Source of the DNA: Roseovarius sp. Pro17
Lineage (GTDB): Bacteria > Pseudomonadota > Alphaproteobacteria > Rhodobacterales > Rhodobacteraceae
NCBI RefSeq assembly: GCF_035599575.1
Contig: NZ_CP141179.1
Location: forward strand, 4,067,001-4,131,000
Direction: 5' to 3'
Length of the DNA stretch: 64,000 nt
In this document: positions 2,224 through 27,778 of the stretch, one piece after another
Position numbering within the stretch: the stretch's first letter is position 1
How the letters are laid out: every line of letters starts with the position of its first letter
Notes under the pieces: model-generated
Database searches by the model: none
What the model was told of the DNA's origin: nothing
The model's input: the letters and a program-made list of their open reading frames with translations, nothing else
Translations under genes and position numbers: made by a program

Positions 2224-2291
2224 GCCAAGCAGCCGGACCTACCACCGTCGCGAATACCAATCTTTCCACTGACAAAGAATAGGAAATCAAG

Positions 2292-2693: not shown

Positions 2694-2814
2694 GCAGAGC
2701 GGCTACCTGACACAGAATGTGGCCGGGCGCTGCACAGGCGTCGACCGGCGACGCTCTCGGTAAATCCTCAGCACGAAACCACCATAAATTAACCCAACTG
2801 ACAGGAGAAAGACC

Positions 2815-3417: not shown

Positions 3418-3660
3418 TGCGCTTTGATCAGGCGTCGCTAACACCGACTTCGAGATCGCCGTCGGTGCGTGACGCCCTAGCGGCCTGAACATCTGAAACG
3501 CCTGCCAGTGACACTACCCGGTAACCGGCAGCGCAAGAAACTTGCAGTCAGAAACATCGTTGCAATCGGAACGAATGTTTCCAGCGGCAAGTTCATTCCT
3601 CAGCGGCTCTCGACCGGGTGGGCCGCGAGGGAAATCCCCAAACCTCCCAAGGAGACTATT

Positions 3661-4452: not shown

Positions 4453-4492
4453 GGCGCCGGTTATCCCAGCCAATTGCTCACTTGATACCAAG

Positions 4493-4518
4493 GGTGGTCG
4501 CGCCGCGGCGCGGTCACC
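4493..4518 (+). other. GC-rich stem-loop between two exported hydrolase genes
   Basis: A near-perfect inverted repeat (GGTGGTCGCGCC / GGCGCGGTCACC) lies 23 bases before the amidohydrolase start and has no T-run. It is more likely an mRNA-stabilising or processing hairpin than an intrinsic terminator. Confidence 0.4.
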
Positions 4519-4540
4519 TCCACCCGAAAAGGAGGAAACG

Positions 4541-6495: not shown

Positions 6496-6795
6496 TCACG
6501 TCGCCGAGCTGAACAGATTACGGACAAAGGCGGTCTCGCCGCGAACGCTTGGCCGCTTGTTTTCAACGTGGCCGTTCTTGATGCTCCTGAACGCCTCGAT
6601 CGCCACGAGCATCACCTTGGCAGAGCGCATGGATCGGAACGACTGCGTTGTCCCGAGTAGCGTTTGAGAGCGGCATGATCGCTCTCGATGCGGTTATTGC
6701 GCCACTTTTGATCGACATGCGCAATGCTGTCGAAATGCGGATCGTAGCGGTGGTTCATATCCTGGATGATCTTACGATAAACTTCGTACTATGTT
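6496..6795 (-). pseudogene. IS6-family transposase, 3' fragment with frameshift
   Basis: Read on the minus strand, the sequence gives RKIIQDMNHRYDPHFDSIAH, then the catalytic-region IESDHAALKR. One base is missing after this (near 6659). The frame then resumes as LLGTTQSFRSMRSAK and continues to a stop at 6496. This is the C-terminal third of an alphaproteobacterial IS6-type DDE transposase, including the final Glu region. The N-terminal part is absent and a stop lies at the upstream edge. It is a dead relic lying between the first gene cluster and the ABC transporter operon. Confidence 0.75.
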
Positions 6796-6959
6796 CGTTC
6801 TTTCAGCCCAAATAGGCCGCTGAGAGCCAATAATGTCGCTTGCGTGCTCAAGATAGTGCGGCGTAGGATCGGTATCCTCGGCGTTCAGATTGAATGTCTC
6901 TACGAGGTGACCGTAGAATAAACAAAAAAAATAGAACAAATCGAACTGGGAGGTTCACT

Positions 6960-8009
6960 ATGAAGAAGCTGATGACAAGGGTATCGATGTCTGCAATCGT
7001 TATTGCATCGCTGACGTCGATGGTATCCGCAGAAGGCGCATTATGGCCGTTCGACGTCGTCAACGCCGCGGACGGCAACGCGGAAATCACGCCCTATACC
7101 GGCCTGGAAAAGGCTGAAAAGCCGTGGCACATCTGCGTTTTGTTTCCCCACATGAAGGATAGCTATTGGGTTGGCGTAAATTATGGCATCGTCGATCAGG
7201 CCCGCACGCTGGGCGTCAAGGCGACGATCTTCGAAGCGGGTGGTTATACAGAAGCGGCCAAGCAGGTGTCACAGTATAACGACTGTCTTGCCCTAGGCGT
7301 CGATGCGATCGTGATCGCCGCGATTTCCGAGGCCGGGCTTGCCAAGAGCATGTCGGAAGGCAAGGAAAAGGGCATCGTTCAGGTTGGCGTGATCAACCCC
7401 ATGAGCGAAGTGGCCGACGCCCGGATATTCGCCAATTATGACGACGCGGCCGAAGCCGGTGCCAAGTTCCTGACGGAGCTGGTGGGCGACACGCCGATGC
7501 GCATGGTGCATTTTCCCGGCCCTCAAGGATCCGGTTGGGCAGAAGCATCCACCGAAGGCGTCGAGCGCGGAATTGAAGGTAGTAGCATCGAACTGCTCGA
7601 GGCCAAGTACGGTGACACCGGCAAAAGCATCCAGCTCCAACTGGTCGAGGATGCCCTGCAGGCCTATGACGATGTGAACATCGTTTACGGCACCGCCGTA
7701 ACCGCCGAAGTTGCAGCACAGGCACTGGAAGAGGCGGGGAACGACGATGCTATTGTCGCTGCCTATTATTCCAACGAAGGCATGGTTGATCTGGTCAGAT
7801 CCGGCGTTGTGACGGCGACCGTGACGGAATCTCCGGTGATGGAGGCCCGCATCGCGATGGACATGGCAGTGCGCATCCTTGAAGGTCAAGACCACCTGTC
7901 CAATCTGCGCCCGTCCATGACCGTGGTGACCAAGGACAATATTGACGGTCTGGACCTCAGCCGTGCGTTCGCGCCAGCGGATTGGGACCCGGTGTATTCG
8001 GTTGAGTAG
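6960..8009 (+). CDS. TorT-like periplasmic substrate-binding protein
   Basis: The start at 6960 is preceded by GGGAGG; 22 more codons are open upstream but lack a ribosome site and would displace the signal peptide. The 349-residue protein has a Sec signal (about 1-22, ending VSA-E). A type I periplasmic-binding fold follows, with the segment KPWHICVLFPHMKDSYWVGV and EAGGYTEAAKQVSQYNDCLA. That pattern matches TorT, the TMAO sensor-binding protein, more than RbsB. It sits seven bases before an RbsA-type ATPase gene and so serves as an importer component rather than a partner of a TorS kinase. TorT relatives bind small N-containing molecules, and the downstream C-N chemistry fits such a ligand. 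Confidence 0.85.
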   Translation: MKKLMTRVSMSAIVIASLTSMVSAEGALWPFDVVNAADGNAEITPYTGLEKAEKPWHICVLFPHMKDSYWVGVNYGIVDQARTLGVKATIFEAGGYTEAAKQVSQYNDCLALGVDAIVIAAISEAGLAKSMSEGKEKGIVQVGVINPMSEVADARIFANYDDAAEAGAKFLTELVGDTPMRMVHFPGPQGSGWAEASTEGVERGIEGSSIELLEAKYGDTGKSIQLQLVEDALQAYDDVNIVYGTAVTAEVAAQALEEAGNDDAIVAAYYSNEGMVDLVRSGVVTATVTESPVMEARIAMDMAVRILEGQDHLSNLRPSMTVVTKDNIDGLDLSRAFAPADWDPVYSVE

Positions 8010-8015
8010 ATTTAC

Positions 8016-9596
8016 ATGACCGGAACGACAAAAGGACCGGGCGCATCGCTTGCGCCCGGCACCTCCGCAGAACCGCTGATCGAAATTGCGCATCTGGACA
8101 AATCTTATGGCGCATTCAAGGCGCTGGAGGACATGCAGTTTGAGCTACGCGCCGGCGAAGTTCACGTGCTGTTTGGAGAAAACGGTGCAGGTAAATCGAC
8201 GCTGATCCAGATCATCTGCGGCGTGCAGGGCTATGACAAAGGCGAGTATCGCCTTTTCGGCGAGACGCTGACAGGGCTGACGCCAGCAGTGGCCCATGAA
8301 AAGGGCGTCAGCATCGTCTTTCAGGAATTCAGCCTGATCCCCGACATGACGGTCGAGGAAAACCTGTTTCTGGGGCATGAAATAACCAGTGGCGGGCGTC
8401 TTGCGAAATCGCAAATGCGCAAGAAGGTGCAGGCGGTACTGGACCGTCTGGGGTTTCAGCTTGATCCCGCGGCACGCGTCAGCACATTGCGACGCGCAAA
8501 TCAGCAGATGGTTGAAATCGCCAAGGCGCTGCTCTGGGATTGTCGGGTTCTGATCCTGGACGAGCCGACCGCGTCATTGACAGATCAGGAAGCGGCACAG
8601 CTATTCGACATCATCGAGCAGTTGCGCAGCGAAGGGCTGGGCATCATTTATGTCTCGCACCGCATGCCGGAAATTACCCGTCTGGCGGACCGTGTCACAG
8701 TTCTGCGCGATGGTAAGTTCATCGCGACGGTGAACAACGCGGATACGTCCGAAAAGGAGTTAGTCCAGCTGATGACCGGCCGGACGTTCGACGAGTTCTT
8801 CCCCCAAATTCATCGTGATCCCGGCGAAACTGTATTGTCATTCGACGATGTGACATTGCAGAGCGGGCTGGCCGAAAACCTGAGCTTTTCGGTGCGACGC
8901 GGTGAGGTGCTGGGTTTTGCCGGACTTGCTGGGTGCGGCAAATCCGAAGTATTGCGGGCAGCCTTTGGGCTGGAAGCGGTCAGAAGTGGCACGATTACTG
9001 CCAACGGTGCAACGCTCGACAAACACAACCCGCGCAAGGCGCTGCGCAACAGGATATGCTACTTTCCGTCTGATCGATCGACCGAAGGGTTGGCAATGCA
9101 TCAAAGTCTGATCTCCAACAGCACCATTGCCGCACTGGATGATCCCGTATTCTCGCGCAAGAAAACCCTACTCAACCGGCGCGCGGAACGCGGATTCACC
9201 GAAACGATGATCGACAAGCTAAAGATCCGCACACCGGGATTGAACGCAAAGGCCGATCAGCTTTCTGGCGGGAACAAGCAAAAGCTTATGATCGCGCGCG
9301 GGCTGTCACGGGAATTCGACGTGTTCCTGTTCGATGAGCCGACCGTAGGCGTCGACATTCAGGCCAAGCTGGAAATTTACGACGTTATCAAGACGCTGAC
9401 GGAAGACGGCAAAGCGGTAGTGATCGCGTCGTCCGAACTGGCCGAGGTCATGCACATGTCGCATCGCGTGATCGTCATGCGGGAGGGCCGGATTGTCGGT
9501 GAACTGGATGGCGATGACATTACCGAAGATGCAGTGCTGTCGCATTTCTTTGACCATGTCGACGTGGACCACGAACAAGGACAACGCGCAACATGA
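8016..9596 (+). CDS. ABC transporter ATP-binding protein, RbsA/sugar type (two NBDs)
   Basis: The 526-residue protein is a tandem ATPase. The first domain has Walker A at residues 54-62 (GENGAGKST) and Walker B LILDEPTASL, with a degenerate signature (LRRANQQM). The second has a GLAGCGKSE loop, an LSGGNKQK signature and FLFDEPTVGVD. This is the RbsA/XylG architecture that energises two RbsC-type permeases. The start overlaps no strong ribosome site and follows the binding-protein stop by six bases. The stop overlaps the next start (ATGA at 9593), indicating translational coupling. Confidence 0.95.
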   Translation: MTGTTKGPGASLAPGTSAEPLIEIAHLDKSYGAFKALEDMQFELRAGEVHVLFGENGAGKSTLIQIICGVQGYDKGEYRLFGETLTGLTPAVAHEKGVSIVFQEFSLIPDMTVEENLFLGHEITSGGRLAKSQMRKKVQAVLDRLGFQLDPAARVSTLRRANQQMVEIAKALLWDCRVLILDEPTASLTDQEAAQLFDIIEQLRSEGLGIIYVSHRMPEITRLADRVTVLRDGKFIATVNNADTSEKELVQLMTGRTFDEFFPQIHRDPGETVLSFDDVTLQSGLAENLSFSVRRGEVLGFAGLAGCGKSEVLRAAFGLEAVRSGTITANGATLDKHNPRKALRNRICYFPSDRSTEGLAMHQSLISNSTIAALDDPVFSRKKTLLNRRAERGFTETMIDKLKIRTPGLNAKADQLSGGNKQKLMIARGLSREFDVFLFDEPTVGVDIQAKLEIYDVIKTLTEDGKAVVIASSELAEVMHMSHRVIVMREGRIVGELDGDDITEDAVLSHFFDHVDVDHEQGQRAT

Positions 9597-10597
9597 ACGT
9601 ATCAGCCGCAAGCCAGCCGCGCCGCGCCAGCAACATTTTGAAAGCCATCGGTATCCTGCCGTTTGTGTTGGTGCTGACCTGCGTTCTACTGGCGCTCTAC
9701 GAGCCGCGTTTTCTGCGGACATCCAATCTGGTCAACGTTTTGCGCAATGCGTCGTTTCTGATGATAATCTCTGCGGGGCAGATGCTGGTAATCATCGTCG
9801 GTGGTTTTGACATTTCCGTCGGTGCGATTGTGGCCCTGACCAGTGTGAGTTCGGCGCTGTCCATGGCCGGGCTTGCCTCAATGGGGTTTGAGTCTGCGCC
9901 AGTGATCATTTTGCTTGGCTGTCTGGCCGGGCTGATCCCCGCACTGATCGTGGGCGTTGCCAACGGGTTTCTTGTCAGCGTGCTCAAGATTTCCCCGTTC
10001 ATGGTGACGATCGGCACCATGACTATCGCCGCAGGCATTGCCGGGTACGTCACGGGAGGCACGCCGATCTATGACATGCCCGAGCTTTTCACCCGTGAGA
10101 TCGGGCGCGGCAAGGCCCTTGGGCTGCCTTATGTCGTCTATGCAGCGGCGATCGTGCTGCTGGTGCTTTGGTACATGCAGACCGAAACGCGGCTGGGGCG
10201 CTATTTCTACGCCGTCGGTGGCAATGAAAAGGCGTCGCGCCTATCGGGGCTGAACACGCGCAAATATATCTGGCTGGCCTATGTTCTGAGCGCGCTGCTG
10301 GCCGGCATCGTCGGCATTTTCCTAACCGCGCGGGTCGGATCAGGCGAGGCGACACTTGGCAGCAGCCTGATGCTCGAGAGCATTTCCGTCGCCGTCATCG
10401 GTGGTGTCGCACTAAAAGGGGGCGTCGGGCGGATACAGATGGTCGCACTCAGTGCGATTTTCTTGTCGGTGCTGAGCAACGGGATGAGTCTGGCGCGGAT
10501 CGACAGCAAATACCACATCATCATCATTGGTTTGGTCATTGTGATTGCGGTCGCCGCAGAGAGCTACCGTGAAAGCCGGAGGGGCGCACATGTCTGA
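9593..10597 (+). CDS. ABC transporter permease, RbsC type (first)
   Basis: The 334-residue hydrophobic protein has about nine or ten membrane segments and the branched-chain/ribose permease signatures AGQMLVIIVGGFDISVGAIVA and GGNEKASRLSGLNTRKY, plus the conserved GGVALKGGVGR loop. It overlaps the ATPase gene by four bases and the following permease gene by eight. Having two non-identical permeases suggests a heterodimeric channel. Confidence 0.94.
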   Translation: MNVSAASQPRRASNILKAIGILPFVLVLTCVLLALYEPRFLRTSNLVNVLRNASFLMIISAGQMLVIIVGGFDISVGAIVALTSVSSALSMAGLASMGFESAPVIILLGCLAGLIPALIVGVANGFLVSVLKISPFMVTIGTMTIAAGIAGYVTGGTPIYDMPELFTREIGRGKALGLPYVVYAAAIVLLVLWYMQTETRLGRYFYAVGGNEKASRLSGLNTRKYIWLAYVLSALLAGIVGIFLTARVGSGEATLGSSLMLESISVAVIGGVALKGGVGRIQMVALSAIFLSVLSNGMSLARIDSKYHIIIIGLVIVIAVAAESYRESRRGAHV

Positions 10598-11573
10598 GAA
10601 CGCCGAGACAGCAGGCATAAATTTCCGCGCATTGGGGCCACATTTGTTGCTGCCCTTCGCGATTGTCGCAGTCGTTCTGATTTTTGCCCTGCTGCAACCG
10701 GCCATGTTGTCAGGCGACAATGTCGTGAACATCATGAAGCAGTCGTCCCTGTTTTTCTTCGTAGCCTGTGCGCAGCTGGTCGTCATCATCACCCGTGGGT
10801 TTGACCTATCTGTGGGGGCCAATGTGTCGCTGGTCTCGGTGGCGTCGTCCATGATCATGACCGCTCTGGTTCCGGTACTGGGGCCTGGAACCAGCATCGC
10901 TGTTGGCGTGATGGCTGGGCTGCTGATAGGTGCGTCTATCGGCGCGGTGAATGGCGTTCTGGTCGCTTATGGCCGGATCAATCCGTTCATCGTCACATTG
11001 GCCACGATGAGCATTTTCACCGGTGTGGCGACCACAATCTCGGGTGGATTTCCGATTTTCAATCTGCCGGAAACGTTCAGTTTTGCCTTGAACCAAATGA
11101 CGGTCCTGATGCTTCCAATTCCGTTGATCATCGCCGCTTTGGTTGCTTACGGGCTTCATTTCTCACTGACCAGAACGGTGCATGGGCGGGTGCTCTATGT
11201 GCTTGGTGATAGCAACGAAGTGGCGCATGTCGGCGGGCGGCGCGTCAAGGAACATTTGTTTTTGGCCTATATCACCAGCGGCGTGCTGGCGTCGGTGGCG
11301 GGGTTACTGATGACGGCACAGACCGGATCGGGAGAGCCGAACCTGGGAACTTCGCTGGTGCTGAACAGTATCGCGGCGGCTGTGATCGGGGGGGCGTCCC
11401 TGCGCGGCGGCACCGGTGGAATTTCGGCACCGATCTACGGTTCCCTGCTGATTGTGTGCCTGTCGATCGGCATGAATCTGCAACAGATCAACGGATCTCT
11501 GCAGCCTGTGGTCATTGGTGCTATCCTGATCTTTGGGGCGGCACTGGATGCCTATCGCACGAAAGCGCGATGA
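10590..11573 (+). CDS. ABC transporter permease, RbsC type (second)
   Basis: The 327-residue permease begins at the ATG at 10590, supported by GGAGGGG just upstream; an earlier in-frame start at 10545 would lie deep in the preceding gene. It has the same signatures as its neighbour (ACAQLVVIITRGFDLSVGAN, GGASLRGGTGGI), so the pair probably arose by duplication and forms the two halves of one channel. It completes the importer with the TorT-like protein and the RbsA-type ATPase. Confidence 0.94.
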   Translation: MSENAETAGINFRALGPHLLLPFAIVAVVLIFALLQPAMLSGDNVVNIMKQSSLFFFVACAQLVVIITRGFDLSVGANVSLVSVASSMIMTALVPVLGPGTSIAVGVMAGLLIGASIGAVNGVLVAYGRINPFIVTLATMSIFTGVATTISGGFPIFNLPETFSFALNQMTVLMLPIPLIIAALVAYGLHFSLTRTVHGRVLYVLGDSNEVAHVGGRRVKEHLFLAYITSGVLASVAGLLMTAQTGSGEPNLGTSLVLNSIAAAVIGGASLRGGTGGISAPIYGSLLIVCLSIGMNLQQINGSLQPVVIGAILIFGAALDAYRTKAR

Positions 11574-11751
11574 ATATTTGCAGACCCGAACGGGAGGTTT
11601 GGGAAATGAGCGCCCGGGTTGGGTGCGGGAACTGCAAGGTGCATCGGCCAAGGCGGTTGCGTGTAGGGGGCAGTGCTATCCAAAGGTTTATACGCAATTC
11701 GCCAAGATGTCAGACTGTATCCGGCGGATTGTAGAAAACAGGGGGGAGAAT

Positions 11752-12714
11752 ATGCATTTTTCGACGAACCAACATGAGGGTTTGGACAAGAACGAGGTGT
11801 GGGCCAAGACCTTGTCCGAGACTTACTTTCCCCTCGCTGCCGAATGTCACAATGCATCAGAGTTCCAGGGACAGCTGAAATCCTGGTCTTTGGGTGTCAT
11901 CGGATTGTCAGAGATGGAATGCGACGGGGTGCTTTACCGTCGCCGGAATAACCATTTTGCCAATGAGAACGACAACAGCCTTTTGATCACCATTCCACAC
12001 AAAGTGGACGTGAACTTCCACCAGGCGTCGCGCGATACAAAATGCGGCCCCGGTGGATTTTTGGTGGAACGGGGCGATATGCCGTATGAGTTCTGGCACG
12101 GCAAGCGCAACAAATTGTGGGTGCTAAAGGTGCCGACGGCAAGTGTGCGGTCCAGGTTGGGCGCCACTGACCGGCTGGGTGCGTTGACGTTCGATGCGAC
12201 GACCGGAGTGGGTTCGTTTTTTGTCGGCGCTGTGCGCAACGCGATCGAGTGTATCGACAATATCAACCACGCCGCGCGGGATATGGCGGGGCAGCATCTG
12301 CTGGATTTGCTTTGCCTGACCATGCGCAGCGACGACCGCATTCTTGACTGCTCGTCCTCGACAATCCGTTCGGCCCATCTGCAGCGGGCTGAACAGTTCA
12401 TTCGCGATAGCTTGGCGAACCCAAACCTCAATTCGCAATTGGTTGCTGAATCCTGCGGCATTTCCCTGAGGTATCTGCAACGGCTGTTTGCAGAGAATGA
12501 CCATTCCATCGTTGGCTACATCCGCGACAAACGCCTGACGCGGTGTGACGAAGCGTTGAAGATGGTCAATGACACGTCGACCGTAGCCAATATCGCCTAC
12601 AAATGGGGGTTTTATGACCAGGCGCAGTTCTGCAGGCACTACCGCAATCGTTTCGGCTGCACGCCGACGGATACTCGCAAGAAAAGCAGGCTAGAGGCCG
12701 CTGTTGGGAACTAA
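11752..12714 (+). CDS. AraC family transcriptional regulator
   Basis: The start at 11752 has GGGGGGAG eight bases upstream; the open frame runs back to 11533 but overlaps the permease gene. The 320-residue product has an N-terminal AraC_binding_2-like domain (about 20-190). A C-terminal double helix-turn-helix follows, with LNSQLVAESCGISLRYLQRL and the second helix region VANIAYKWGFYDQAQFCRHY. The FGCTPTDTRKK ending is typical. It lies between the transporter genes and the hydantoinase/molybdenum hydroxylase genes in the same orientation and probably activates both in response to the imported substrate. Confidence 0.92.
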   Translation: MHFSTNQHEGLDKNEVWAKTLSETYFPLAAECHNASEFQGQLKSWSLGVIGLSEMECDGVLYRRRNNHFANENDNSLLITIPHKVDVNFHQASRDTKCGPGGFLVERGDMPYEFWHGKRNKLWVLKVPTASVRSRLGATDRLGALTFDATTGVGSFFVGAVRNAIECIDNINHAARDMAGQHLLDLLCLTMRSDDRILDCSSSTIRSAHLQRAEQFIRDSLANPNLNSQLVAESCGISLRYLQRLFAENDHSIVGYIRDKRLTRCDEALKMVNDTSTVANIAYKWGFYDQAQFCRHYRNRFGCTPTDTRKKSRLEAAVGN

Positions 12715-12732
12715 AGCCGGCCTTTGACCAAC

Positions 12733-12765
12733 GAGGCCCTGAACCCCTTCGACAGCCTCTTTTTT
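12733..12765 (+). terminator. Possible intrinsic terminator after the AraC gene
   Basis: GAGGC (12733-12737) pairs with GCCTC (12755-12759) and is followed by six T at 12760-12765. The stem is only five pairs with a 17-base loop, so termination is likely weak. It could separate the transporter/regulator unit from the hyuA unit. Confidence 0.4.
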
Positions 12766-12823
12766 GGCGATCGGCTGTGATCTCCCAGCAGCCGGTCAAA
12801 GACATTCAAAACAGGAATAGACA

Positions 12824-14851
12824 ATGACAAAAACCAGAGTTGCAGTTGATGTCGGCGGTACGTTTACCGACGTTTGCATCATGGACGAGGATACCGGCGA
12901 AATCCGCATCGAAAAGACGCCATCGACCCCTGATGATCCGATGCGCGCCATCATGATCGGCGTCGCGGATGCGAAGGTAGATCTGAGCGATGTGTCGATG
13001 TTTTCGCACGGAACGACCGTGGCAACCAACGCTCTGATCACCCGCAAGCTGCCCCGGACGGCGATGGTGTGCACCGAAGGGTTTCGGGATGTCGTCGAAA
13101 TTCGTCGGTCCAACAAGGAGGATCTTTGGGACACCTACAAGGATGTCGCCAAGCCCTATATCCCGCGCCGGGATCGGTTGACGGTCAAGGAACGCATTGA
13201 TGCGGCTGGAAAGATCCTTCACGAACTGGACGAGGATGAGGCCCGCAAGGTGGCCGAAATCCTCAAGAAGCGCGACGTCAAAGCCATCGCAGTCTGCTTC
13301 ATCAACTCTTACGTCAACGGCCAGAACGAACGGCGGATGAAAGAGATCCTGCAAGAGGCGATGCCAGATGTGCATATCTCGATCTCGTCCCAGATCATGC
13401 CCGAGATCTTTGAACACGAGCGGTTTTCGACAACGATGGTGAACGCGGCGGTGTCGCCCGTGGTGGTCGATTATGTGTCCCGGTTGAGCGACAAGCTCTC
13501 TGATGGTGGCTACAACCGCGACCTTCTGTTGTTGCACACAGGCGGCGGTGTGATGACCCCGGCCAGCGTCAAGGATTTCGCGGCTCGCCTAGCGGGATCG
13601 GGGATCGCGGCGGGTGCGATCGCCAGCCGGTTCATTGGCAACCTGTGCGGCTATGAGAATTCCATCGGATTCGACATGGGCGGCACCAGCACCGACGTGT
13701 CCTTGGCCTATCAGGGTGAATCGATCGTAACGAAGGACTGGTATATTGAATTCGGCTATCCGATCCGGTTCCCCAGCATCGAAGTTCTGACCATCGGGGC
13801 CGGTGGCGGCTCACTGGCATGGAAGGACGAAGGCGGTAGCCTGCGCAACGGGCCGCAATCGGCGGGCGCCAATCCGGGGCCGGCGTGCTATTCCAACGGT
13901 AACGGGGTTGCTACGAACAGCGACGCCAACGTGGTTCTGGGGCGTCTGGGCACCAGCCTTGCGGGCGGCGACATCACGCTTGATCCCAAGCTGGCGGAAA
14001 AGGCCGTGCGCGAAACGGTCGCGGAGCCTTTTGACATGGAGCTGCACGAGGCGGCCGAAGCGATCATCGACGTGGCCAATGCGAACATGGCGAATGCGGT
14101 GCGGCTGCTGTCGATCTCGCGCGGGCATGATCCTCGCGATTTCGCGCTGATCGCATTTGGCGGGGCAGGCGCGCTGCATGGGGCAGAAGTGGCAAAGGAG
14201 CTGGCGATCCCGGTCGTCATAGTGCCGCCCAACCCCGGCGTAACCTCGGCTATGGGATGCCTGCTGGTGGATATCCAGCATGATTTCTCCGACAGCTTCA
14301 TGGCGGATGCGGCAACCACCGAACCCAAAGACCTTGAGGCGGCATTTCAGACAATCGAGGCCGAGGCGGTCGAGCAATTGCGCCACGAAGGCGTGGCACC
14401 CGAGAACACCGTGCTGCAACGCACAGTCGAGATGATGTATCAGGGCCAGTGGCGGTCTCTTGCGGTGTCGGCACCGGCCAAGATTACCAGCACAGACGAT
14501 CTGATCCATGGCTTTCACAACCAGCACGAACAGGAATATAATTTCCGCCGCGATGACGCACCCGTAAGCATCTTTAGGGTCGGCATCAAAGCGACCGGTG
14601 TGGTGCCAAAGGCCGAATTGCCGTCGCATGAAGTGGTCAAGAATACGCCAAAGCCCGCCGGTCAACGCGATGCCTGGTTTGACGGTGAGCGATGCAAGAC
14701 CGACGTTTATCATCGTATCGATTTCAAGGCAGGTGCCGAATTCACCGGTCCGGCAATTGTCGAGCAGGTCGATTCAACCGTGGTCGTTCCGCCGAACACA
14801 ACTGCATGGGTCGATCAATACATGAACATTCATATCCGCGTGGAGGGCTGA
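12824..14851 (+). CDS. hyuA: Hydantoinase/oxoprolinase subunit A (HyuA-like)
   Basis: The 675-residue protein begins with the ATPase motif VDVGGTFTDVCIMD, then SHGTTVATNALI, and has the second phosphate motif FDMGGTSTDVSL near residue 285. These mark the actin-like ATP-binding HyuA/OPLAH family. HyuA with HyuB forms an ATP-dependent amidohydrolase or carboxylase that opens lactam, hydantoin or imidazolone-like rings, or carboxylates ketones. AGGAA lies nine bases upstream of the start. The hyuB gene begins three bases after its stop. The molybdenum hydroxylase genes downstream suggest the substrate is an oxidised N-heterocycle. Confidence 0.93.
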   Translation: MTKTRVAVDVGGTFTDVCIMDEDTGEIRIEKTPSTPDDPMRAIMIGVADAKVDLSDVSMFSHGTTVATNALITRKLPRTAMVCTEGFRDVVEIRRSNKEDLWDTYKDVAKPYIPRRDRLTVKERIDAAGKILHELDEDEARKVAEILKKRDVKAIAVCFINSYVNGQNERRMKEILQEAMPDVHISISSQIMPEIFEHERFSTTMVNAAVSPVVVDYVSRLSDKLSDGGYNRDLLLLHTGGGVMTPASVKDFAARLAGSGIAAGAIASRFIGNLCGYENSIGFDMGGTSTDVSLAYQGESIVTKDWYIEFGYPIRFPSIEVLTIGAGGGSLAWKDEGGSLRNGPQSAGANPGPACYSNGNGVATNSDANVVLGRLGTSLAGGDITLDPKLAEKAVRETVAEPFDMELHEAAEAIIDVANANMANAVRLLSISRGHDPRDFALIAFGGAGALHGAEVAKELAIPVVIVPPNPGVTSAMGCLLVDIQHDFSDSFMADAATTEPKDLEAAFQTIEAEAVEQLRHEGVAPENTVLQRTVEMMYQGQWRSLAVSAPAKITSTDDLIHGFHNQHEQEYNFRRDDAPVSIFRVGIKATGVVPKAELPSHEVVKNTPKPAGQRDAWFDGERCKTDVYHRIDFKAGAEFTGPAIVEQVDSTVVVPPNTTAWVDQYMNIHIRVEG

Positions 14852-14854
14852 GCC

Positions 14855-16816
14855 ATGGACAGCACGACAAAACAGGAACTGGACCCGGTCACTTTCGAGG
14901 TTCTCAAGAATTCTTTCATCACCTCGGTCGATCAGATGGCCGAACAGATGCTGCGCACCTGCTATTCCTTTGTGATCTACAATCGCGACTTCTCCAACGG
15001 TTTGCATGATGCCGAGGGCAATTGCGTGGCACAGGGCAACGCGGATATCGCCGTCCACGTCGGCACGCTGCACTACACTTGCAAGGATGTGATCCGCGTC
15101 TTTAAAGACGATATGTATCCCGGCGATGTGTATGCCATCAACGACCCTTACGCAGGGGGAACCCACTTTAGTGACGTGCGCCTGGTGCGCCCGATCTTTG
15201 ACGAGGAAACGCTGATTGGGTTTTCGCAGTCAAATGGCCACTGGTCCGATTTGGGCGGCTCTGTCCCCGGATCGTTCAACGTGACTGCTCACGAGATGTT
15301 TGGCGAGGCGGTGCGTATTACGCCGATCCGCCTGTTCCACAAGGGCAAGTTTTGCTCTGACGTGGCGAACATGATTGCGGCCAATACGCGCGATCCTGCG
15401 TCCATCATCGGCGACATTCATTCGCAAGCGCAGGCGACCCAAGTGGCAGAGCGGGAACTACAGCGGCTGGTAGGCAAATATGGCCGCGATCAAGTCACTC
15501 AAGGCATGGACGAAGTGCAGGACTACGTTGAACGGTCGGTCCGCCAGCGGATTTCCGACCTGCCAGATGGAACCTGGGAAGCGGTCGACTACATCGACCG
15601 TGACCCCGGCGCTGGAGAGGGCATGATCCCGATCCACATCAAGATGACGATCAAAGGCGATCAGATCGTTTATGATTTCGAGGGCAGCCATCCGACGATC
15701 TCTTCGATCTATAACTCCGCGCATGGGGCGACGTTCTCGGCTGTTGTCGCCGGGATGAAAACGTTCTTTCCGGATCTGCCGATGAACAGTGGCTTTTATC
15801 GCATGGTCGAGATCAAGACCCCGAAAAACAGTGTCGTCAGTGCGGAATGGCCCATTGCCGTTACCGGTTTCCTGATGCCGTTCGAAAAGATCATGAACGC
15901 GATTTTTGAGATGTGGTCACAGATCATGCCCGAGCGCGCCATCGCCTGTGCGTTCAACCTTGAATATCTGCTTGCCGGTGGCAATGACCTGCGCAAACCG
16001 GAAAAGCCGATCTACATGTTCTACGAATGGCTGCCCGGCGGCTGGGGCGGGCGCAACGGCAAGGATGGCAGCGATGTCACGACGGCATGTTTCGGCACCG
16101 GCCTGATGTCACAGCCTTCTGAGGGTAATGAGCGTGTGAACCCAACACGCGCCGATGTTTTCGAGATCAAGCAAGACAGCCCCGGACCGGGCAAATGGCG
16201 GGGCGGGGCGGGCGTCATCAAGGCATCCACGCTGCTTGAGGCAGACAACACGGTGATGTCCTACATCTGCGACCGCGAAAGGGCCGTGGTCTGGGGCGTC
16301 GAGGGTGGCCTGCCGTCGATGCCGCACGGGCTATTGGTCAAGCACGCTGACACCGGAGAGGAAACATGGCTGGGATCGGTGTTTTCCAACTACAAGATCA
16401 AGAGCGGTGACAAATTCACCCGCCCGACCGCTGGCGGCGGCGGCTATGGTGATCCGATGGAGCGTGATCCCGATCACGTTTTGGAAGACGTGATCGACGA
16501 TTATGTCTCGGTCGGGCGCGCCGAAAAGGACTATGGCGTGGTGATCAAGGTGATTGACCGCGACATGCTGGATTACGAGGTCGACAAGGCAGCGACTGAC
16601 AAGGCACGGGCGCACATCCGGGCAAACCGTGTCGAATGGGCGCGGATGAATCCCGAGAAGGTTTCGCAAATGTATAAAGACGGTGAAATCGACGAGATGG
16701 ACGCCGTGCGAAAATACGCCGTGATCATGGATTGGGGCACCGGGGAACTGATGCCGAAATCCACCGAGCAGTTCCGTGAGAGCTTTGAGCGCCGCTCGGT
16801 ATCACACTGGGCATGA
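14855..16816 (+). CDS. hyuB: Hydantoinase/oxoprolinase subunit B (HyuB-like)
   Basis: The 653-residue protein opens with DPVTFEVLKNSFITSVDQMA and contains YNRDFSNGLHDAEGN, INDPYAGGTHFSDVRLVRPI and the C-terminal GGGGYGDPMERDP loop. All are diagnostic of the HyuB / 5-oxoprolinase B superfamily, at usual length. GGAGG in the end of hyuA serves as its ribosome site. It is the metal-containing catalytic partner of HyuA in characterised relatives. A short GC-rich stretch with inverted symmetry follows its stop (16830-16862) before the next gene. Confidence 0.93.
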   Translation: MDSTTKQELDPVTFEVLKNSFITSVDQMAEQMLRTCYSFVIYNRDFSNGLHDAEGNCVAQGNADIAVHVGTLHYTCKDVIRVFKDDMYPGDVYAINDPYAGGTHFSDVRLVRPIFDEETLIGFSQSNGHWSDLGGSVPGSFNVTAHEMFGEAVRITPIRLFHKGKFCSDVANMIAANTRDPASIIGDIHSQAQATQVAERELQRLVGKYGRDQVTQGMDEVQDYVERSVRQRISDLPDGTWEAVDYIDRDPGAGEGMIPIHIKMTIKGDQIVYDFEGSHPTISSIYNSAHGATFSAVVAGMKTFFPDLPMNSGFYRMVEIKTPKNSVVSAEWPIAVTGFLMPFEKIMNAIFEMWSQIMPERAIACAFNLEYLLAGGNDLRKPEKPIYMFYEWLPGGWGGRNGKDGSDVTTACFGTGLMSQPSEGNERVNPTRADVFEIKQDSPGPGKWRGGAGVIKASTLLEADNTVMSYICDRERAVVWGVEGGLPSMPHGLLVKHADTGEETWLGSVFSNYKIKSGDKFTRPTAGGGGYGDPMERDPDHVLEDVIDDYVSVGRAEKDYGVVIKVIDRDMLDYEVDKAATDKARAHIRANRVEWARMNPEKVSQMYKDGEIDEMDAVRKYAVIMDWGTGELMPKSTEQFRESFERRSVSHWA

Positions 16817-16899
16817 CAGCGACCGGTTCGTGAAACCCGTCCCGTCAGTTTGGCGGGGCGGTATTCACGCATCTGAAGATCAGGGTGTGGTGCCATTAG

Positions 16900-17754
16900 A
16901 TGACAACTAGTCCTTTCCACCTTCCACAAAGCGTCGACGCCGCAATCGCGGCGCTGACTGGTGACGCGGTGTTGGTTGCGGGGGCAACTTGGGTGATGCG
17001 CGCAAACTTGCGCGACGAAAGCAACGACCGCGTCCTAGTCTCGCTATCGCGAATTGCGGAATTGAGCGAGGTTCAGCACGATGAGAATGTGCTGCGTATT
17101 GGATCGCTCGTCACTCATGACGGACTTGGGGCAGCGCTAACTGGATTGGCGGAAATGGGAGCTTTGGCGCAGGCGGCTGCAATGTCGGCAAACCCCGCCA
17201 TTCGTCGCGTAGCGACCTTGGGGGGTAACATTTGCGCCCAAGGGTTCGCGGCACCCGATCTGGTTCCGGCGCTGATCGCGCTGAACGCGACGGTCGAAGT
17301 TCGATCAAAGGTCGGGGCCGAAACGCTGGACATCGAGGACTATCTGTTGGCCCGCCCCACGCGCCCGTCAGATGAAATCCTGACAGGTATTCAGGTTACG
17401 CGGCAATCCGGTTGGTCTGCCCATGCCAGAGGGCTGTTGCGGCAGGCCGGAGAGTATCCGGTCGCGAATGTCAGTGCTTTTATAGACGCGGATGATGGCG
17501 GAACGATAAACTCGGCCCGCATCGCAGTCGGCGCGGTCGAACCAGTGCCGCGACGATGGCAGAGCCTGGAAAACGCGTTGGTCGGCCAGCCAATTGACGC
17601 CGTTTGCCTTGGCAACATTGCGCTGGACCATCTGGGCGACTTCACACCCCGCGACGGTGTCGATTCACCAGGAAAGTACCGCCTGCGTATTCTGCCTCGG
17701 CTGGCCGAACATGTATTTGCGGACATAGCGAAACAGATGCAGGAAGGAACCTAG
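16900..17754 (+). CDS. Molybdenum hydroxylase, FAD-binding subunit (CoxM/XdhB type)
   Basis: The 284-residue protein has the FAD-binding subunit M pattern: VLVAGATWVMRANL near the N-terminus and ANPAIRRVATLGGN, the loop that binds the FAD pyrophosphate and C-terminal CO dehydrogenase flavoprotein domain. It transfers electrons from the iron-sulfur subunit to an acceptor. The ribosome site is weak. It directly abuts the 2Fe-2S gene (stop 17752-17754, next start 17755). This M-S-L gene order is standard for three-subunit xanthine-dehydrogenase-family enzymes. Confidence 0.93.
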   Translation: MTTSPFHLPQSVDAAIAALTGDAVLVAGATWVMRANLRDESNDRVLVSLSRIAELSEVQHDENVLRIGSLVTHDGLGAALTGLAEMGALAQAAAMSANPAIRRVATLGGNICAQGFAAPDLVPALIALNATVEVRSKVGAETLDIEDYLLARPTRPSDEILTGIQVTRQSGWSAHARGLLRQAGEYPVANVSAFIDADDGGTINSARIAVGAVEPVPRRWQSLENALVGQPIDAVCLGNIALDHLGDFTPRDGVDSPGKYRLRILPRLAEHVFADIAKQMQEGT

Positions 17755-18225
17755 ATGCCCGTGTCCTTTACGCTCAATGACAGGCAGCGCAGTTATTCCG
17801 GCGATCCTCGAACGTCTTTGCTGGTTGCTTTGCGGGATGAATTTCGTCTGACCGGTGCCAAGGACGTTTGTGGTGAGGGGTTCTGTGGCGCCTGTATCGT
17901 CTATGTGGACGGCGCGCCAAAGGTATCCTGCCTGCAACCTGTGGGCGCGCTGGAGGGGGCTGAAATCACGACAATCGAAGGGATTGGCAGCGTTGAAACG
18001 CTGAACCCGGTCCAGCAGGCATTTGTCGATTTTGACGTTGTTCAATGTGGCATGTGTTTTCCGGGCATGGTGATGACGCTCACGCATTTTCTGAGGGGCA
18101 ATCCACACCCCAGCCGGGACCAAGTGAAATCGGCGCTGGTCGGAAATATCTGTCGCTGTACGGGATATGAACGGATCATCGATGCGGTGATGTCGCTTCA
18201 CAACAGCGTGGAGCCCCTGGAATGA
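17755..18225 (+). CDS. Molybdenum hydroxylase, 2Fe-2S subunit (CoxS/XdhC-like small subunit)
   Basis: The 156-residue protein carries all eight cluster cysteines: C39, C44, C47 and C59 for the plant-ferredoxin-type cluster, and C98, C101, C133 and C135 (QCGMC and ICRCTGY) for the second 2Fe-2S domain. It relays electrons from the molybdenum site to FAD. AGGAAGGAAC precedes the start. The stop overlaps the next start by four bases (ATGA at 18222), so subunit synthesis is coupled. Confidence 0.95.
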   Translation: MPVSFTLNDRQRSYSGDPRTSLLVALRDEFRLTGAKDVCGEGFCGACIVYVDGAPKVSCLQPVGALEGAEITTIEGIGSVETLNPVQQAFVDFDVVQCGMCFPGMVMTLTHFLRGNPHPSRDQVKSALVGNICRCTGYERIIDAVMSLHNSVEPLE

Positions 18226-20567
18226 GCGAGCCGACGCAAAACCCAGCCGTGATGGACCTGCCGCGCCGCGATGCGCGCGACAAGCTGCAAGGGCGGACGA
18301 AATACACCGTCGATGCGGGTGGGTCGGATGTGATTCACGCGGCTTTGCTGCGCTCGGACAGGGCAAGTGCGCGGATCAGGAACATGGATGTCGGACCCGC
18401 GTTGAACATGCCCGGAGTTCTGGGCATTGCCACCTGTAAGGATGCGCCGGGGCTGCATGGCCTTGGCATTGCGGATCACCCGATCTTTGCCGATGACACG
18501 GTCCGCTATCATGGTGAACCGATCGCGGCGATCGCTGCCGAAACCGTCGCGCAGGCTCGCGCCGCCGCAGCGGCAATTGTGGTGGAATATGATCCCCTGC
18601 CCGCCGTCCTGACTATGGCAGAGGCACTAGCGAATGACGCGCCGTTGGTCCATCCGGGTTGGCGGGACTACGAAATCCTGTTTGAAGGCGCTCAGCGCGG
18701 TGGCAACGTGGCTTGGCAGGCGACGATCGAACGGGGCGACACGGATAAGGCGTTCGCCCGCGACGACGTAACGATTGTCGAAGGCACCTATCAGGTGGGG
18801 CGGCAGAACCAAGTGCCGTTTGAACCTCGCGCAGTTATCGCCGCCTATGAGGATGGGCGCTATCATGTCCACACTTCGACGCAGGCACCTTGGACGGTCA
18901 AAAGTGTCACAGCCAAGGTTCTGGGCGTGCCGGAATCAGCCGTCCGGGTCACCGTACCGGCGGTGGGCGGTGGTTTTGGCCTGAAATTCGACTGCTCGCT
19001 CGAACCATACGCTGCCGTGCTTGCCCGCAAGACCGGCAGGTCCGTGTCACTGATCAATTCCCGCAAGGAAGAGATGATGACCTGTTTGTGCCGCGAGAAT
19101 GCGGACATCCGCATCAGGTCTGCCGTCACCAAAGACGGTGATATTGTCGGGCGCGAGGCAACGGTCCTGATGGATTGCGGGGCCTATGGCGGTGAACAAG
19201 TGTTCCTGACCACGATGACGGCACATACATTGGGTGGAAATTACCGACTGGGCGCGGTCCGGTTATGTACCAAGGCAGTCTACACCAACACGCCACCCAA
19301 CGGGGCATTCCGGGCCTGCAACGGTGTTTACAATACTTTCGCGCTTGAACGGCACACGGATGAAATCTGCAAGGCCATCGCGATGGACCCGCTTAGTTTT
19401 CGCCGCCGAAATGTGGTGGCAGATCAGGATCTAGGCGCAACAGGGCAGAAGTTTGAGGGTGACGTCCTTGGTCCGATGCTGGATCGTATGATCGCAAAAC
19501 ACCCCATCGAGGCGCGCAGTGCCACCTTGCCGGATGGGCGGTTGTTTGGGCGCTCCACGACGGTCGGAACCTGGTTCATCTTTGTCGGGCCGTCATCCGC
19601 CACGGTCAATCTCAATGCCGACGGCAGTGCCACGCTGGTGACCGCGGGCGTAGAGATCGGGTCTGGCACGATGATGCAATCGCTGCCGCAGATCGTGGCT
19701 GCCAATCTGGGCATTCATCCCGATAAGGTGATCGTGAAAACCGCAGACACCGATGCGGCGGGTCGTGATCTGGGGGTCGGCGGCGGACGCACGACTGTTT
19801 CCATCGGTGCCGCCAGCGAAGCCGCTTGTGCGCAGGTGCGTGACAAGTTGCTGGGGGTGGCAAGTGAACTCCTTCAGACCCCTGCGGATGATCTGGTGCT
19901 GGCAGGTGGACGGGTCGAGATCAAGGGTCGCCCCGGATCGGGGGCAACGATTGAAAAGATCGTGCAGCAGGCAGAGCTGGCCATTGGTCCCGTGTCGGGC
20001 AGCGGTGCATTTACCGCCCCCGGCGTGCCAGCGATGCCGGGATGTGCCGCCGGACACTTCATTGACGCGATCGACGTACCGGTTTTCGCAGTGCATGATT
20101 GTGAGGTCGCGGTCGACGCGATCACCGGCCATGTCGAAATCCTGTCCTACCGGGTGGTGCAGGACGTCGGGCGCGCCCTGAACCGTCGTGCGATCCATGG
20201 GCAGATTCAAGGTGGTGTGGTTCAAGGGCTTGGTTATGCGCTGACCGAAGAAATCACGATCAACGCACAGGGTGCGTTCGATCAGACCGGGTTTGAAAAC
20301 TATCGCATGCCTTTGGCGGGTGACGTGATACCCATCGAATTCGACCTTTACGAAGGCGCACCATCTATTGGTCCGTTGGGCACCAAAGGCGCGGGAGAAG
20401 TGCCAATACTGAACGTCGCAGCGGCGATCGGCTGCGCCGTGGCCAATGCGACCGGCAAACCGGTCAACTCGCTGCCCCTGACGCCACCGCGCGTTGCCGA
20501 CCTGATCGACGGTAAATTGTCGGCACCTGAAATGAGCCACGTCAGCTTGAACTGGGCCAGGAAATAG
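18222..20567 (+). CDS. Molybdenum hydroxylase, molybdopterin-binding large subunit
   Basis: The 781-residue protein has the aldehyde oxidase/xanthine dehydrogenase hammerhead domain at the N-terminus. The molybdopterin-binding motifs are VGGGFGLKF, NGAFRACNGVYN, GSGTMMQSLPQI and GVGGGRTTVS, with catalytic Glu at E726 in GTKGAGE. It hydroxylates a C-H next to a ring nitrogen or an aldehyde carbon using water. Cluster-mates HyuAB suggest its lactam-type product is then opened. No XdhC-like maturation chaperone gene lies in the window, so maturation must be supplied elsewhere. The substrate cannot be named from sequence. Confidence 0.94.
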   Translation: MSEPTQNPAVMDLPRRDARDKLQGRTKYTVDAGGSDVIHAALLRSDRASARIRNMDVGPALNMPGVLGIATCKDAPGLHGLGIADHPIFADDTVRYHGEPIAAIAAETVAQARAAAAAIVVEYDPLPAVLTMAEALANDAPLVHPGWRDYEILFEGAQRGGNVAWQATIERGDTDKAFARDDVTIVEGTYQVGRQNQVPFEPRAVIAAYEDGRYHVHTSTQAPWTVKSVTAKVLGVPESAVRVTVPAVGGGFGLKFDCSLEPYAAVLARKTGRSVSLINSRKEEMMTCLCRENADIRIRSAVTKDGDIVGREATVLMDCGAYGGEQVFLTTMTAHTLGGNYRLGAVRLCTKAVYTNTPPNGAFRACNGVYNTFALERHTDEICKAIAMDPLSFRRRNVVADQDLGATGQKFEGDVLGPMLDRMIAKHPIEARSATLPDGRLFGRSTTVGTWFIFVGPSSATVNLNADGSATLVTAGVEIGSGTMMQSLPQIVAANLGIHPDKVIVKTADTDAAGRDLGVGGGRTTVSIGAASEAACAQVRDKLLGVASELLQTPADDLVLAGGRVEIKGRPGSGATIEKIVQQAELAIGPVSGSGAFTAPGVPAMPGCAAGHFIDAIDVPVFAVHDCEVAVDAITGHVEILSYRVVQDVGRALNRRAIHGQIQGGVVQGLGYALTEEITINAQGAFDQTGFENYRMPLAGDVIPIEFDLYEGAPSIGPLGTKGAGEVPILNVAAAIGCAVANATGKPVNSLPLTPPRVADLIDGKLSAPEMSHVSLNWARK

Positions 20568-22319: not shown

Positions 22320-23099
22320 ATGATTAGACCAGCAATCACCCTCATCGCCGCGTTGCTTGCATCGTCCGCCAGCGCGCAGGACCTGACCAAAGGGACCTGG
22401 GTCGACCTGACCCATTCGTTTAATTCTGAATCAGTCTATTGGCCCACGGCGAAAATGTTCGAGCTGACCGAAGTTTTTGCGGGTCACACCGATGGCGGCT
22501 ATTACTACTCTTCCTACGATTTCGCATCTTCCGAGCATGGCGGGACGCATCTGGACGCGCCGGTGCATTTCGCAGAAGGGGCGCACTCCTCTGATGAGAT
22601 TCCGGTTGAACAGTTGATTGGGCCGGGGTTCGTCATCGACGTTACCAAGCAGTCTGGGGATGATGTCGACTATCTGGTGTCGGCGGCTGATATCGAAGCC
22701 TTCGAAGCCGAGCATGGCAAAATTCCAGAGGGTGCTATTGTTCTTCTGAATACCGGTCGGGCCGGGCTTTATCCCGATCGCGAGACCTATATGGGCACTG
22801 CTGCCCGCGGGCAGGAGGCAGTTGCTGATCTGCATTTTCCGGGCCTTGGACTCGACGGCGCAAAACTTCTCGTGGAGCGTGGTATCGGTGCGGTGGGCCT
22901 CGATACGCCCTCTATCGACTACGGGCAGTCAACGGACTTCGCGAGTCACGTAGAACTTATGACGAATAACGTCGCCGCCTTTGAGAATGTGGCAGACATG
23001 AGCGCACTGCCGAGCACTGGAAGTACGATCATCGCAATGCCCATGAAGATCGAAGGTGGTTCCGGAGGACCCCTGCGCATAATAGCGCATTTACCTTGA
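22320..23099 (+). CDS. Exported cyclase-family (kynurenine-formamidase-like) hydrolase
   Basis: The 259-residue product has a signal peptide (1-19, cleaved near SASAQ) and the cyclase/KynB fold. The metal motif HGGTHLDAPVHF carries H73, H77 and D79, and a late GLDTPSIDYGQ segment forms part of the active site. Cytosolic KynB hydrolyses N-formylkynurenine using zinc or manganese. Exported homologues are less understood and may act on other amides or lactones. AAGGA lies 12 bases upstream. It stands alone, downstream of IS debris. Confidence 0.85.
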   Translation: MIRPAITLIAALLASSASAQDLTKGTWVDLTHSFNSESVYWPTAKMFELTEVFAGHTDGGYYYSSYDFASSEHGGTHLDAPVHFAEGAHSSDEIPVEQLIGPGFVIDVTKQSGDDVDYLVSAADIEAFEAEHGKIPEGAIVLLNTGRAGLYPDRETYMGTAARGQEAVADLHFPGLGLDGAKLLVERGIGAVGLDTPSIDYGQSTDFASHVELMTNNVAAFENVADMSALPSTGSTIIAMPMKIEGGSGGPLRIIAHLP

Positions 23100-27771: not shown

Positions 27772-27778
27772 CGTCAGC
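27765..27778 (+). repeat. Second orphan copy of the IS3-element outer end
   Basis: TGTCTGACGTCAGC is identical to the outermost 14 bases of the right end of the IS3-type element at 29849-29862 (opposite strand). Similarity does not continue inward. It contains the TGA stop of the AI-2E family gene. Confidence 0.55.

Follow-up and report, generated by a model that had tools for sequence, protein, structure and literature searches.

In a stretch of 64,000 nucleotides from Roseovarius sp. Pro17 (contig NZ_CP141179.1, positions 4,067,001 to 4,131,000; hereafter the window), ten plus-strand genes with short gaps at 6960–20567 encode an ATP-binding cassette (ABC) importer, an AraC-family regulator, the subunits HyuA and HyuB of a predicted ATP-dependent cyclic-amide hydrolase and a three-subunit molybdenum (Mo) hydroxylase, here named MoM, MoS and MoL. 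Comparison with related loci revealed that this Mo enzyme is nearly always located near an ATP-dependent opener of cyclic amides, either HyuAB or PxpABC, while the reverse is untrue for HyuAB. On balance, the operon probably serves as a catabolic module in which an imported N-heterocycle would be converted to a lactam and the lactam to an omega-amino acid for an aminotransferase. The genes, their intact catalytic motifs and the repeated pairing of Mo enzyme and opener were directly observed. A preliminary description of this DNA had already placed all these genes in one orientation with short gaps; open reading frames (ORFs) and Pfam scans confirmed this, and every protein exceeded the Pfam cut-off of its own family. 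The eight genes counted there become ten when counted by subunit, in the order binding protein, double ABC ATPase, two permeases, AraC regulator, HyuA, HyuB, MoM, MoS and MoL.

A search seeded with MoL was run in addition to the search seeded with HyuA, which avoided the bias of starting from HyuA. It yielded 18 distinct loci, namely 13 plasmid records (E 1e-150) and G000, G300, G621, G477 and G619 (G and L numbers denote genomes and loci, respectively). An ATP-dependent cyclic-amide opener was found near the Mo genes in 17 of the 18. In 13 of these loci, namely 11 plasmids (judged by coordinates), the window and L132, an orthologous HyuA gene precedes the Mo genes on the same strand; HyuB was also checked in L103, L105, L110, the window and L132. 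In G619 and G621, a distant HyuB-HyuA pair (32–34% identity) and a complete Pxp-AccBC set are present near the Mo genes. The HyuB-HyuA genes of G619, together with a Liv-type importer identified by eye, precede the Mo genes on the same strand, and PxpA-AccB-AccC-PxpB-PxpC lies past an AraC gene; in G621, a PxpA-AccB-AccC-PxpB-PxpC-HyuB-HyuA-aminotransferase run is divergent from the Mo genes, past a LysR gene. Two further loci, L113 (Diaphorobacter) and L114 (Sulfitobacter alexandrii), carry Pxp-AccBC without HyuAB in the stretches read; an importer of TorT type with a single permease and the three Mo genes belong to the same run. Neither organism occurs among the 28 plasmid records bearing HyuA, of which 25 were listed individually and all were covered by a genus tally. 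The opener, HyuAB or Pxp, is swapped while the importer and the Mo front end stay. This repeated pairing supports the earlier proposal of one unit in which import, oxidation by the Mo enzyme and ATP-dependent cyclic-amide opening are combined.

The loci are spread over rhizobia, roseobacters and a β-proteobacterium, and also occur on plasmids. MoL was detected in one of 60 genomes of a relatives set (the source genome only, at E 1e-150; 35 of the 59 others belong to its genus), in two of 248 genomes of a family sample (G000, G300) and in four of 385 genomes of a class sample (G000, G621, G477, G619), the latter two samples at E 1e-200. HyuA matched six class-sample and four family-sample genomes at E 1e-220, and only G000 and G300 were among the MoL matches. 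The nearest named relatives of HyuA from the 4.24 Mb source genome are from Roseovarius (92%) and an uncultured Sulfitobacter (91%).

The HyuA-seeded set consisted of the best 80 of 151 confirmed loci from a genome scan with HyuA. Counts over these 80 loci refer to a tblastn census, in which MoL was scored as present at 55% identity or more; ORF-cluster counts were set aside because the clusters include antisense ORFs. In 44 loci (Mo+), MoL is encoded downstream of HyuB on the same strand, within 2.5 kb in 32 and with intervening genes in 12, and an AraC match was found in 78. The clustering of HyuAB with the Mo enzyme is not due to chance. A TorT-type substrate-binding protein (SBP) is encoded in 17 loci, 15 of the 44 Mo+ loci as compared with two of the 36 without the Mo enzyme (Mo−; Fisher p 0.002, ignoring kinship). 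The gene set thus recurs in other genomes, with the importer too in 15 loci, but not in the 36 that lack the Mo enzyme beside HyuAB. As 29 of these 36 have at least 9 kb of sequence past HyuA, most of the absences are real. Separate occurrence of the two enzymes, which the preliminary description had named as an argument against its own proposal, therefore holds for HyuAB but not for the Mo enzyme, found alone in one of 18 loci. Other importers, encoded by Liv-, Pot- or amino-acid-type ABC genes or by permease genes, stand beside HyuAB relatives, and Mo-free HyuAB perhaps acts on lactams brought in by these.

The histories of the two enzymes were compared in quickly searched trees with branch support from one test. 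The HyuA tree contained 90 proteins (48 with the Mo enzyme, 35 without and 7 unscored owing to short flanks) and the MoL tree 50 of 53 proteins, L076, L087 and L089 being dropped with fewer than 560 residues. L103, the same record as L068, and L111 and L112, plasmid stretches without listed genes and without MoL, were left out. The Mo state changes at least ten times on the HyuA tree, or nine times when L064 is unscored; this locus was scored Mo− in the census and the first tree count and unscored in the refined count. The partner type changes at least five times on the MoL tree under both initial and refined labels. For instance, MoL of L132 is sister to that of L130, but its HyuA is sister to HyuA of L035; likewise, MoL of the Aureimonas loci L078, L081, L082 and L105 falls inside a rhizobial group and their HyuA inside an Aureimonas/Bradyrhizobium group. 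As the trees disagree, the pairing arose repeatedly, and such changes of partner are better evidence of a shared function than a conserved gene order would be by itself. The distances of HyuA and MoL correlate (Mantel r 0.67, 45 loci, 0 of 2000 permutations), as would also be expected from vertical descent.

Judged from their sequences, the catalytic parts of HyuAB and of the Mo hydroxylase look intact. HyuA keeps the ATP motifs DVGGTFTDV (9–17), Lys31, DMGGT (284–288) and GANPGP (348–353), the reference being those of the caprolactamase subunit CapA in the available sections of PMC8453981. In HyuB, Asp45, His104, Asp107 and His129 align with the metal ligands Asp41, His99, Asp102 and His124 of CapB. 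The domains of both subunits, the A-then-B order, the ATP motifs and the metal ligands place the pair in the HyuAB family, of which the hydAB gene order is a characteristic according to the accessible part of PMC5214803. The caprolactamase (CapAB) models of NCBIfam were not reached, the scores being 521.1 bits for HyuA and 308.5 bits for HyuB at cut-offs of 1000. A conserved lysine of HyuA was considered as a test against a 5-oxoprolinase and abandoned: the published Lys40 was inconsistent with our alignment, in which Lys31 aligns with Lys32 of CapA.

The Mo enzyme has the subunit set of the xanthine dehydrogenase (XDH) family, with FAD, 2x[2Fe-2S] and molybdopterin subunits all present. It shares with XDH and other three-subunit Mo hydroxylases the domains, eight Fe-S cysteines (39, 44, 47, 59, 98, 101, 133 and 135 of MoS) and a C-terminal glutamate: Glu726 of MoL aligns with the glutamate of a GVGEL stretch in aldehyde oxidoreductase (PDB 1sij), presumably the catalytic residue. 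Unlike XDH and other named Mo hydroxylases, MoL remained below all 13 listed NCBIfam cut-offs (best 422.5 bits, cut-off 994.55) and missed the specific models of XDH, 4-hydroxybenzoyl-CoA reductase, aldehyde dehydrogenase and CO dehydrogenase. Its nearest PDB matches are 4-hydroxybenzoyl-CoA reductase and 6-hydroxypseudooxynicotine dehydrogenase, followed by 1sij. The source genome has one match to the maturation factor XdhC (PF02625), at 1.61 Mb.

The neighbouring genes of the relatives point to the chemistry of the pathway. A class III omega-aminotransferase is encoded in 35 of the 80 loci, 27 of the 44 Mo+ and 8 of the 36 Mo− loci. In the PDB, it is matched best by 9j4y (617 bits), 9j2k and 6g4b (591 bits), and 4-aminobutyrate transaminases scored 446. 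We take 6g4b to be the aminotransferase of the P. jessenii caprolactam pathway. The function of the latter enzyme is described in the available text of PMC6061476. GabT occurs in three loci: in L035 it is encoded between the importer and Pxp genes, in L062 it is downstream of MoL, and the third is L063. Among HyuAB relatives of 57–58% identity, those of Halomonas are accompanied by succinate-semialdehyde dehydrogenase (SSADH) and an aminotransferase, and those of Rhodococcus by gabT, an aldehyde dehydrogenase and PucR regulators. RidA, of the imine/enamine deaminase family, is encoded near the plasmid loci L103 and L110. Because omega-aminotransferase, GabT and SSADH act on omega-amino acids, these neighbours suggest opening of a lactam rather than of a hydantoin or imidazolone, and the likely chemistry is lactam formation and opening, not hydantoin or purine chemistry. 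A comparable oxidation of cyclic imines to lactams is catalysed by mammalian aldehyde oxidase. PxpA is commoner in Mo+ loci (33 of 44 versus 13 of 36; p 0.0006, ignoring kinship). Pxp as a marker of Mo loci was nevertheless rejected, PxpC being present in 12 of 44 Mo+ versus 12 of 36 Mo− loci (p 0.63). Homarine was considered as a substrate and dropped, as the papers found gave no catabolic gene set for comparison. A small protein of cupin/NTF2 type recurs with the aminotransferase (L038 20040–20708, L105 28738–29403) and was matched in 25 of the 80 loci.

In the module that we propose, the TorT-like ABC system would import a small N-heterocycle, and MoM-MoS-MoL would add an oxygen from water at the carbon beside the ring nitrogen, so that a cyclic imine or similar ring would become a lactam. 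HyuA would phosphorylate the lactam with ATP, and the metal site of HyuB would hydrolyse it to an omega-amino acid. The route would end with an omega-aminotransferase and a semialdehyde dehydrogenase, both of which would here be encoded elsewhere (a GabT gene at 2.28 Mb, 72% identical to that of L035), and the AraC protein would control the operon. We infer the order of the steps, the lactam as product of the Mo enzyme, the regulation and the compound. For the last, we can offer a guess with little chance of being right, namely 1-pyrroline, which would yield 2-pyrrolidinone and then 4-aminobutyrate (GABA), or the six-membered-ring equivalent. Similarly speculative is the idea of a modular route of wide distribution: after import, cyclic imines from plant or algal polyamine oxidation, for example 1-pyrroline and N-(aminoalkyl)pyrrolinium compounds, might be oxidised to lactams by the Mo hydroxylase, and HyuAB or the biotin-type PxpABC-AccBC might interchangeably open these to GABA-like omega-amino acids. 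If true, such a polyamine-derived imine route would bypass aminoaldehyde dehydrogenase by way of a lactam, and the biotin-type Pxp module would have a role beyond 5-oxoproline salvage. The Mo hydroxylase, a large HyuAB subfamily and a biotin-type 5-oxoprolinase-like module would be joined in one testable scheme; since importer and Mo enzyme are retained with either opener, a single screen of substrates could provide annotations for three groups of enzymes.

Several observations weigh against the proposed module. Rhizobium plasmids account for nine of the 18 MoL-seeded loci, and in eight of these MoL is 68.3–68.7% identical to the query; the nine are near kin, so the independent sample is smaller than 18. 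In G477 (L130/L134), neither HyuAB nor Pxp was found within the 27 kb read, and an acetamidase-like ORF (by eye) lies about 4 kb from the Mo genes. The TorT importer is missing from 29 of the 44 Mo+ loci. Orthologs of HyuA with 85–89% identity lack an adjacent Mo enzyme in L019, L021–L025, L045, L067 and L100, roseobacters among them, and the HyuAB-bearing genomes G021 and G022 gave no MoL match anywhere at 1e-150; HyuAB therefore does not need the Mo enzyme. RidA was found in just two of the 80 census loci, L068 (the record of L103) and L082. In the PDB, both HyuA (455 bits) and HyuB (286 bits) are closest to N-methylhydantoinase. Finally, no relative of the aminotransferase, GabT, SSADH, Pxp or RidA was detected in the window at E 1e-10, and the best match to the neighbouring aminotransferase in the source genome is only 40% identical.

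The Mo enzyme might instead act after HyuAB as an aldehyde oxidoreductase on the semialdehyde from the transaminated omega-amino acid, with the lactam itself being imported. We consider this unlikely, although the XDH family includes such enzymes, 1sij is the third PDB match of MoL, rhizobial loci such as L029 are ordered HyuAB-Mo-aminotransferase, and the two Mo-free relatives of Halomonas and Rhodococcus have an aldehyde dehydrogenase. Aldehyde dehydrogenase is no general substitute for the Mo enzyme, as SSADH at 40% or more was found in one of the 80 loci (L073), and in L105, which is Mo+, an aldehyde dehydrogenase gene is situated 8 kb upstream of HyuA. Moreover, L113 and L114 have no listed aminotransferase nearby (an aldehyde dehydrogenase lies 10 kb off in L113), and the TorT importer tracks the Mo enzyme.

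Less probable again is oxidation of an imidazole-, hydantoin-, purine- or creatinine-like ring, followed by opening of the hydantoin or imidazolone by HyuAB to an N-carbamoyl or formimino product. Rings of these kinds are oxidised by Mo enzymes, and N-methylhydantoinase (7hk5) is the closest solved-structure relative of HyuA and HyuB. It differs from them in being one fused chain of 1288 residues instead of two subunits and in having Gln at the position of His129. A cytosine-permease family gene in the Halomonas HyuAB locus and an amidase-signature gene in six of the 80 loci would also suit such chemistry. However, no carbamoylase or dihydropyrimidinase was seen by eye among 22 representatives of recurring ORF clusters, omega-amino acids are the substrates of the recurring enzymes downstream, caprolactamase ranks first for HyuA among NCBIfam models (521 bits, under the cut-off of 1000), and MoL misses the XDH-specific cut-offs. 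The hydantoins, imidazoles, purines and creatinine that the preliminary description had named are hence less supported as substrates, the kinship to N-methylhydantoinase remaining in their favour.

We regard it as improbable that an aromatic, indole- or pyridine-like N-heterocycle is hydroxylated to a lactam of oxindole or pyridone type for opening by HyuAB. The precedent is anaerobic indoleacetate degradation, in which the ring oxidation before IaaCE is catalysed by a Mo enzyme. In Aromatoleum aromaticum, the oxo-lactam ring formed by ring oxidation is proposed to be opened with ATP by IaaCE of the same enzyme family, as far as PMC5214803 and PMC8453981 were available, and ring oxidation followed by ATP-driven opening by a HyuAB relative is what our proposal has in common with this pathway. 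The two nearest PDB matches of MoL would be compatible with an aromatic substrate as well. In the indoleacetate pathway, IaaB activates the substrate with coenzyme A (CoA), and CoA transferase, mutase and acyl-CoA dehydrogenase steps follow (PMC8360864, available part); unlike there, no CoA ligase or later CoA enzyme was found among the 40 window proteins, a subset of its ORFs, that our Pfam scans covered. The incomplete gene tables of five Mo+ plasmids (L103, L105, L110, L113 and L114) contain no CoA ligase either, and an opened oxindole would be an aryl amine, not an expected substrate of the omega-aminotransferase. Very improbable, lastly, is that the Mo enzyme and HyuAB serve different substrates and share only regulator and mobile DNA: HyuA relatives are on 28 plasmid records, MoL is on 13 and HyuAB often occurs without Mo, but common mobility alone can hardly account for a Mo enzyme re-paired with HyuAB orthologs, distant HyuAB and Pxp.

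Among known systems, the proposed module resembles the caprolactam cluster of P. jessenii, which comprises CapAB, an omega-aminotransferase and 6-oxohexanoate dehydrogenase (PMC6061476 and PMC8453981, in the sections available). Both have an ATP-dependent opener of the HyuAB family with the same catalytic motifs and, in the relatives of our operon, a class III omega-aminotransferase. The Mo hydroxylase and the TorT-like importer are absent from the accessible parts of the caprolactam description (PMC6061476, PMC8453981), Tyr136 of CapB is replaced by Phe141 in HyuB, and the vicinal disulfide of CapB is not kept. The prokaryotic 5-oxoprolinase PxpABC, here encoded with biotin carboxylase genes, is likewise an ATP-dependent lactam opener, and in L113 and L114 it replaces HyuAB beside a TorT importer and this Mo enzyme; according to the available text of PMC8453981, PxpABC shows no sequence similarity to CapAB, a member of the HyuAB family. 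All enzymes thus belong to known families. In agreement with the preliminary description, which knew of no named pathway with this combination, we found no description in open-licence PubMed Central literature, a scope with most subscription journals outside it, and the combination is apparently undescribed there.

The source genome contains a second set of relevant genes. At about 0.61 Mb (L147 3392–8053), PxpA-AccB-AccC-PxpB-PxpC is 83–89% identical to the set of S. alexandrii, and PxpC is directly followed by what remains of a permease, an 88-residue piece with 86% identity to the end of the importer permease in S. alexandrii. Apparently, a Pxp-type operon complete with importer existed in an ancestor and lost the importer at 0.61 Mb, with the HyuAB-type operon gained or kept in the window.

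A 26-bp stretch upstream of the importer may be bound by the AraC protein. It was found once each in the window (4 mismatches), L018 (1), L035 (0) and L100 (2), and in the three loci measured it precedes the SBP gene by 145–152 bp. The probe gave these 4 matches in 2.39 Mb, and ten shuffled probes gave 0, 0, 0, 0, 0, 0, 2, 0, 0 and 0. As it was built from the window, L018 and L035, L100 is the only independent match; this locus has importer, AraC and HyuAB without Mo genes. L062, with identical gene order, does not have the stretch.

Table 1. Features of the operon and its upstream region (window coordinates).
Feature	Position	Strand	Basis
Candidate regulator-binding site upstream of importer	6808..6833	+	26-bp stretch common to four loci
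SBP, periplasmic, TorT-like/CUT2	6960..8009	+	PF13407 112.7 bits; closest PDB 4yhs 268 bits
CUT2-type ABC transporter ATPase, two ABC domains	8016..9596	+	PF00005, 2 stretches
ABC permease A	9593..10597	+	PF02653 115.7 bits
ABC permease B	10590..11573	+	PF02653 116.6 bits
AraC-family regulator, FeaR-like	11752..12714	+	PF14525 + PF12833; FeaR model 129.9 bits, cut-off 199
HyuA, ATP-binding subunit, predicted ATP-dependent cyclic-amide hydrolase	12824..14851	+	PF05378, PF01968, PF19278
HyuB, metal/hydrolase subunit	14855..16816	+	PF02538 519.6 bits
MoM, FAD subunit of molybdenum hydroxylase	16900..17754	+	PF00941 107 bits, PF03450 48.8 bits
MoS, 2x[2Fe-2S] subunit	17755..18225	+	PF01799, PF00111
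MoL, molybdopterin-binding catalytic subunit, XDH family	18222..20567	+	PF01315, PF02738, PF20256

The ORF of the SBP opens at 6894; a signal peptide and a ribosome-binding site, judged by eye, favour the ATG at 6960, the start given previously. Permease B probably starts at 10590 and AraC at 11752, as judged by eye from ribosome-binding site or overlap. The SBP scored 278.5 bits with the TorT model PRK10936 (cut-off 200) and 186.8 bits with TIGR02955 (cut-off 310). The label torT, which denotes a periplasmic sensor of the trimethylamine N-oxide (TMAO) reductase system, stems from the annotation of relatives; in the window, the gene belongs to an ABC importer operon. The ABC ATPase stayed under the cut-offs of all NCBIfam models shown (best 25 of 194), permease A under all 11 listed and permease B under all 10 listed.

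The flanking genes for an isochorismatase (3508–4452), an Amidohydro_3 protein (4541–6355) and a cyclase (22320–23099) had matches in none of the 80 loci at E 1e-10 and thus lie outside the conserved unit. The YcaC-like isochorismatase-fold and Amidohydro_3 genes (3508–6355) have the orientation of the operon, and both proteins have apparent signal peptides. A role of the former as N-carbamoyl amidase was dismissed in view of its YcaC-type closest relatives, its apparent signal peptide and its absence from the 80 loci. The downstream cyclase is a secreted-looking PF04199 protein of kynurenine-formamidase type, not conserved with the operon; its assignment as an isatin hydrolase was dropped for want of matches in the 80 loci. 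An IS6-type transposase remnant (by eye), at about 6497–6765 on the minus strand, separates the operon from the amidohydrolase gene upstream and may mark the insertion point of the operon.

Related loci showed further features. In L129, a GMC-type oxidoreductase (by eye) and a small partner at 13621–15668 adjoin MoMSL near a Pxp-HyuBA-aminotransferase operon; it is possible that this oxidoreductase provides another first oxidation step. L064 contains, at its cut start (1–294) upstream of AraC-HyuAB, a MoL-like fragment of 98 residues (51% identity), and the Mo genes of this locus may be positioned on the opposite side of AraC-HyuAB. A pair of ORFs with equal lengths and beginnings (IS21-like by eye) at 2179–4561 and 19023–21405 of L053 brackets an aminotransferase-AraC-HyuAB-Liv unit in the style of a composite transposon. 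In L109 (Methylobacterium), a second HyuAB with a class IV aminotransferase (24273–28937) follows the first HyuAB and a branched-chain-type importer. Elsewhere in the window, parts of a tripartite ATP-independent periplasmic (TRAP) transporter (DctP, DctM) with an amidase and a 2-hydroxyacid dehydrogenase are encoded at 37062–42837, and a peptide-type ABC importer with an M20 peptidase and an amidase at 47044–55548.

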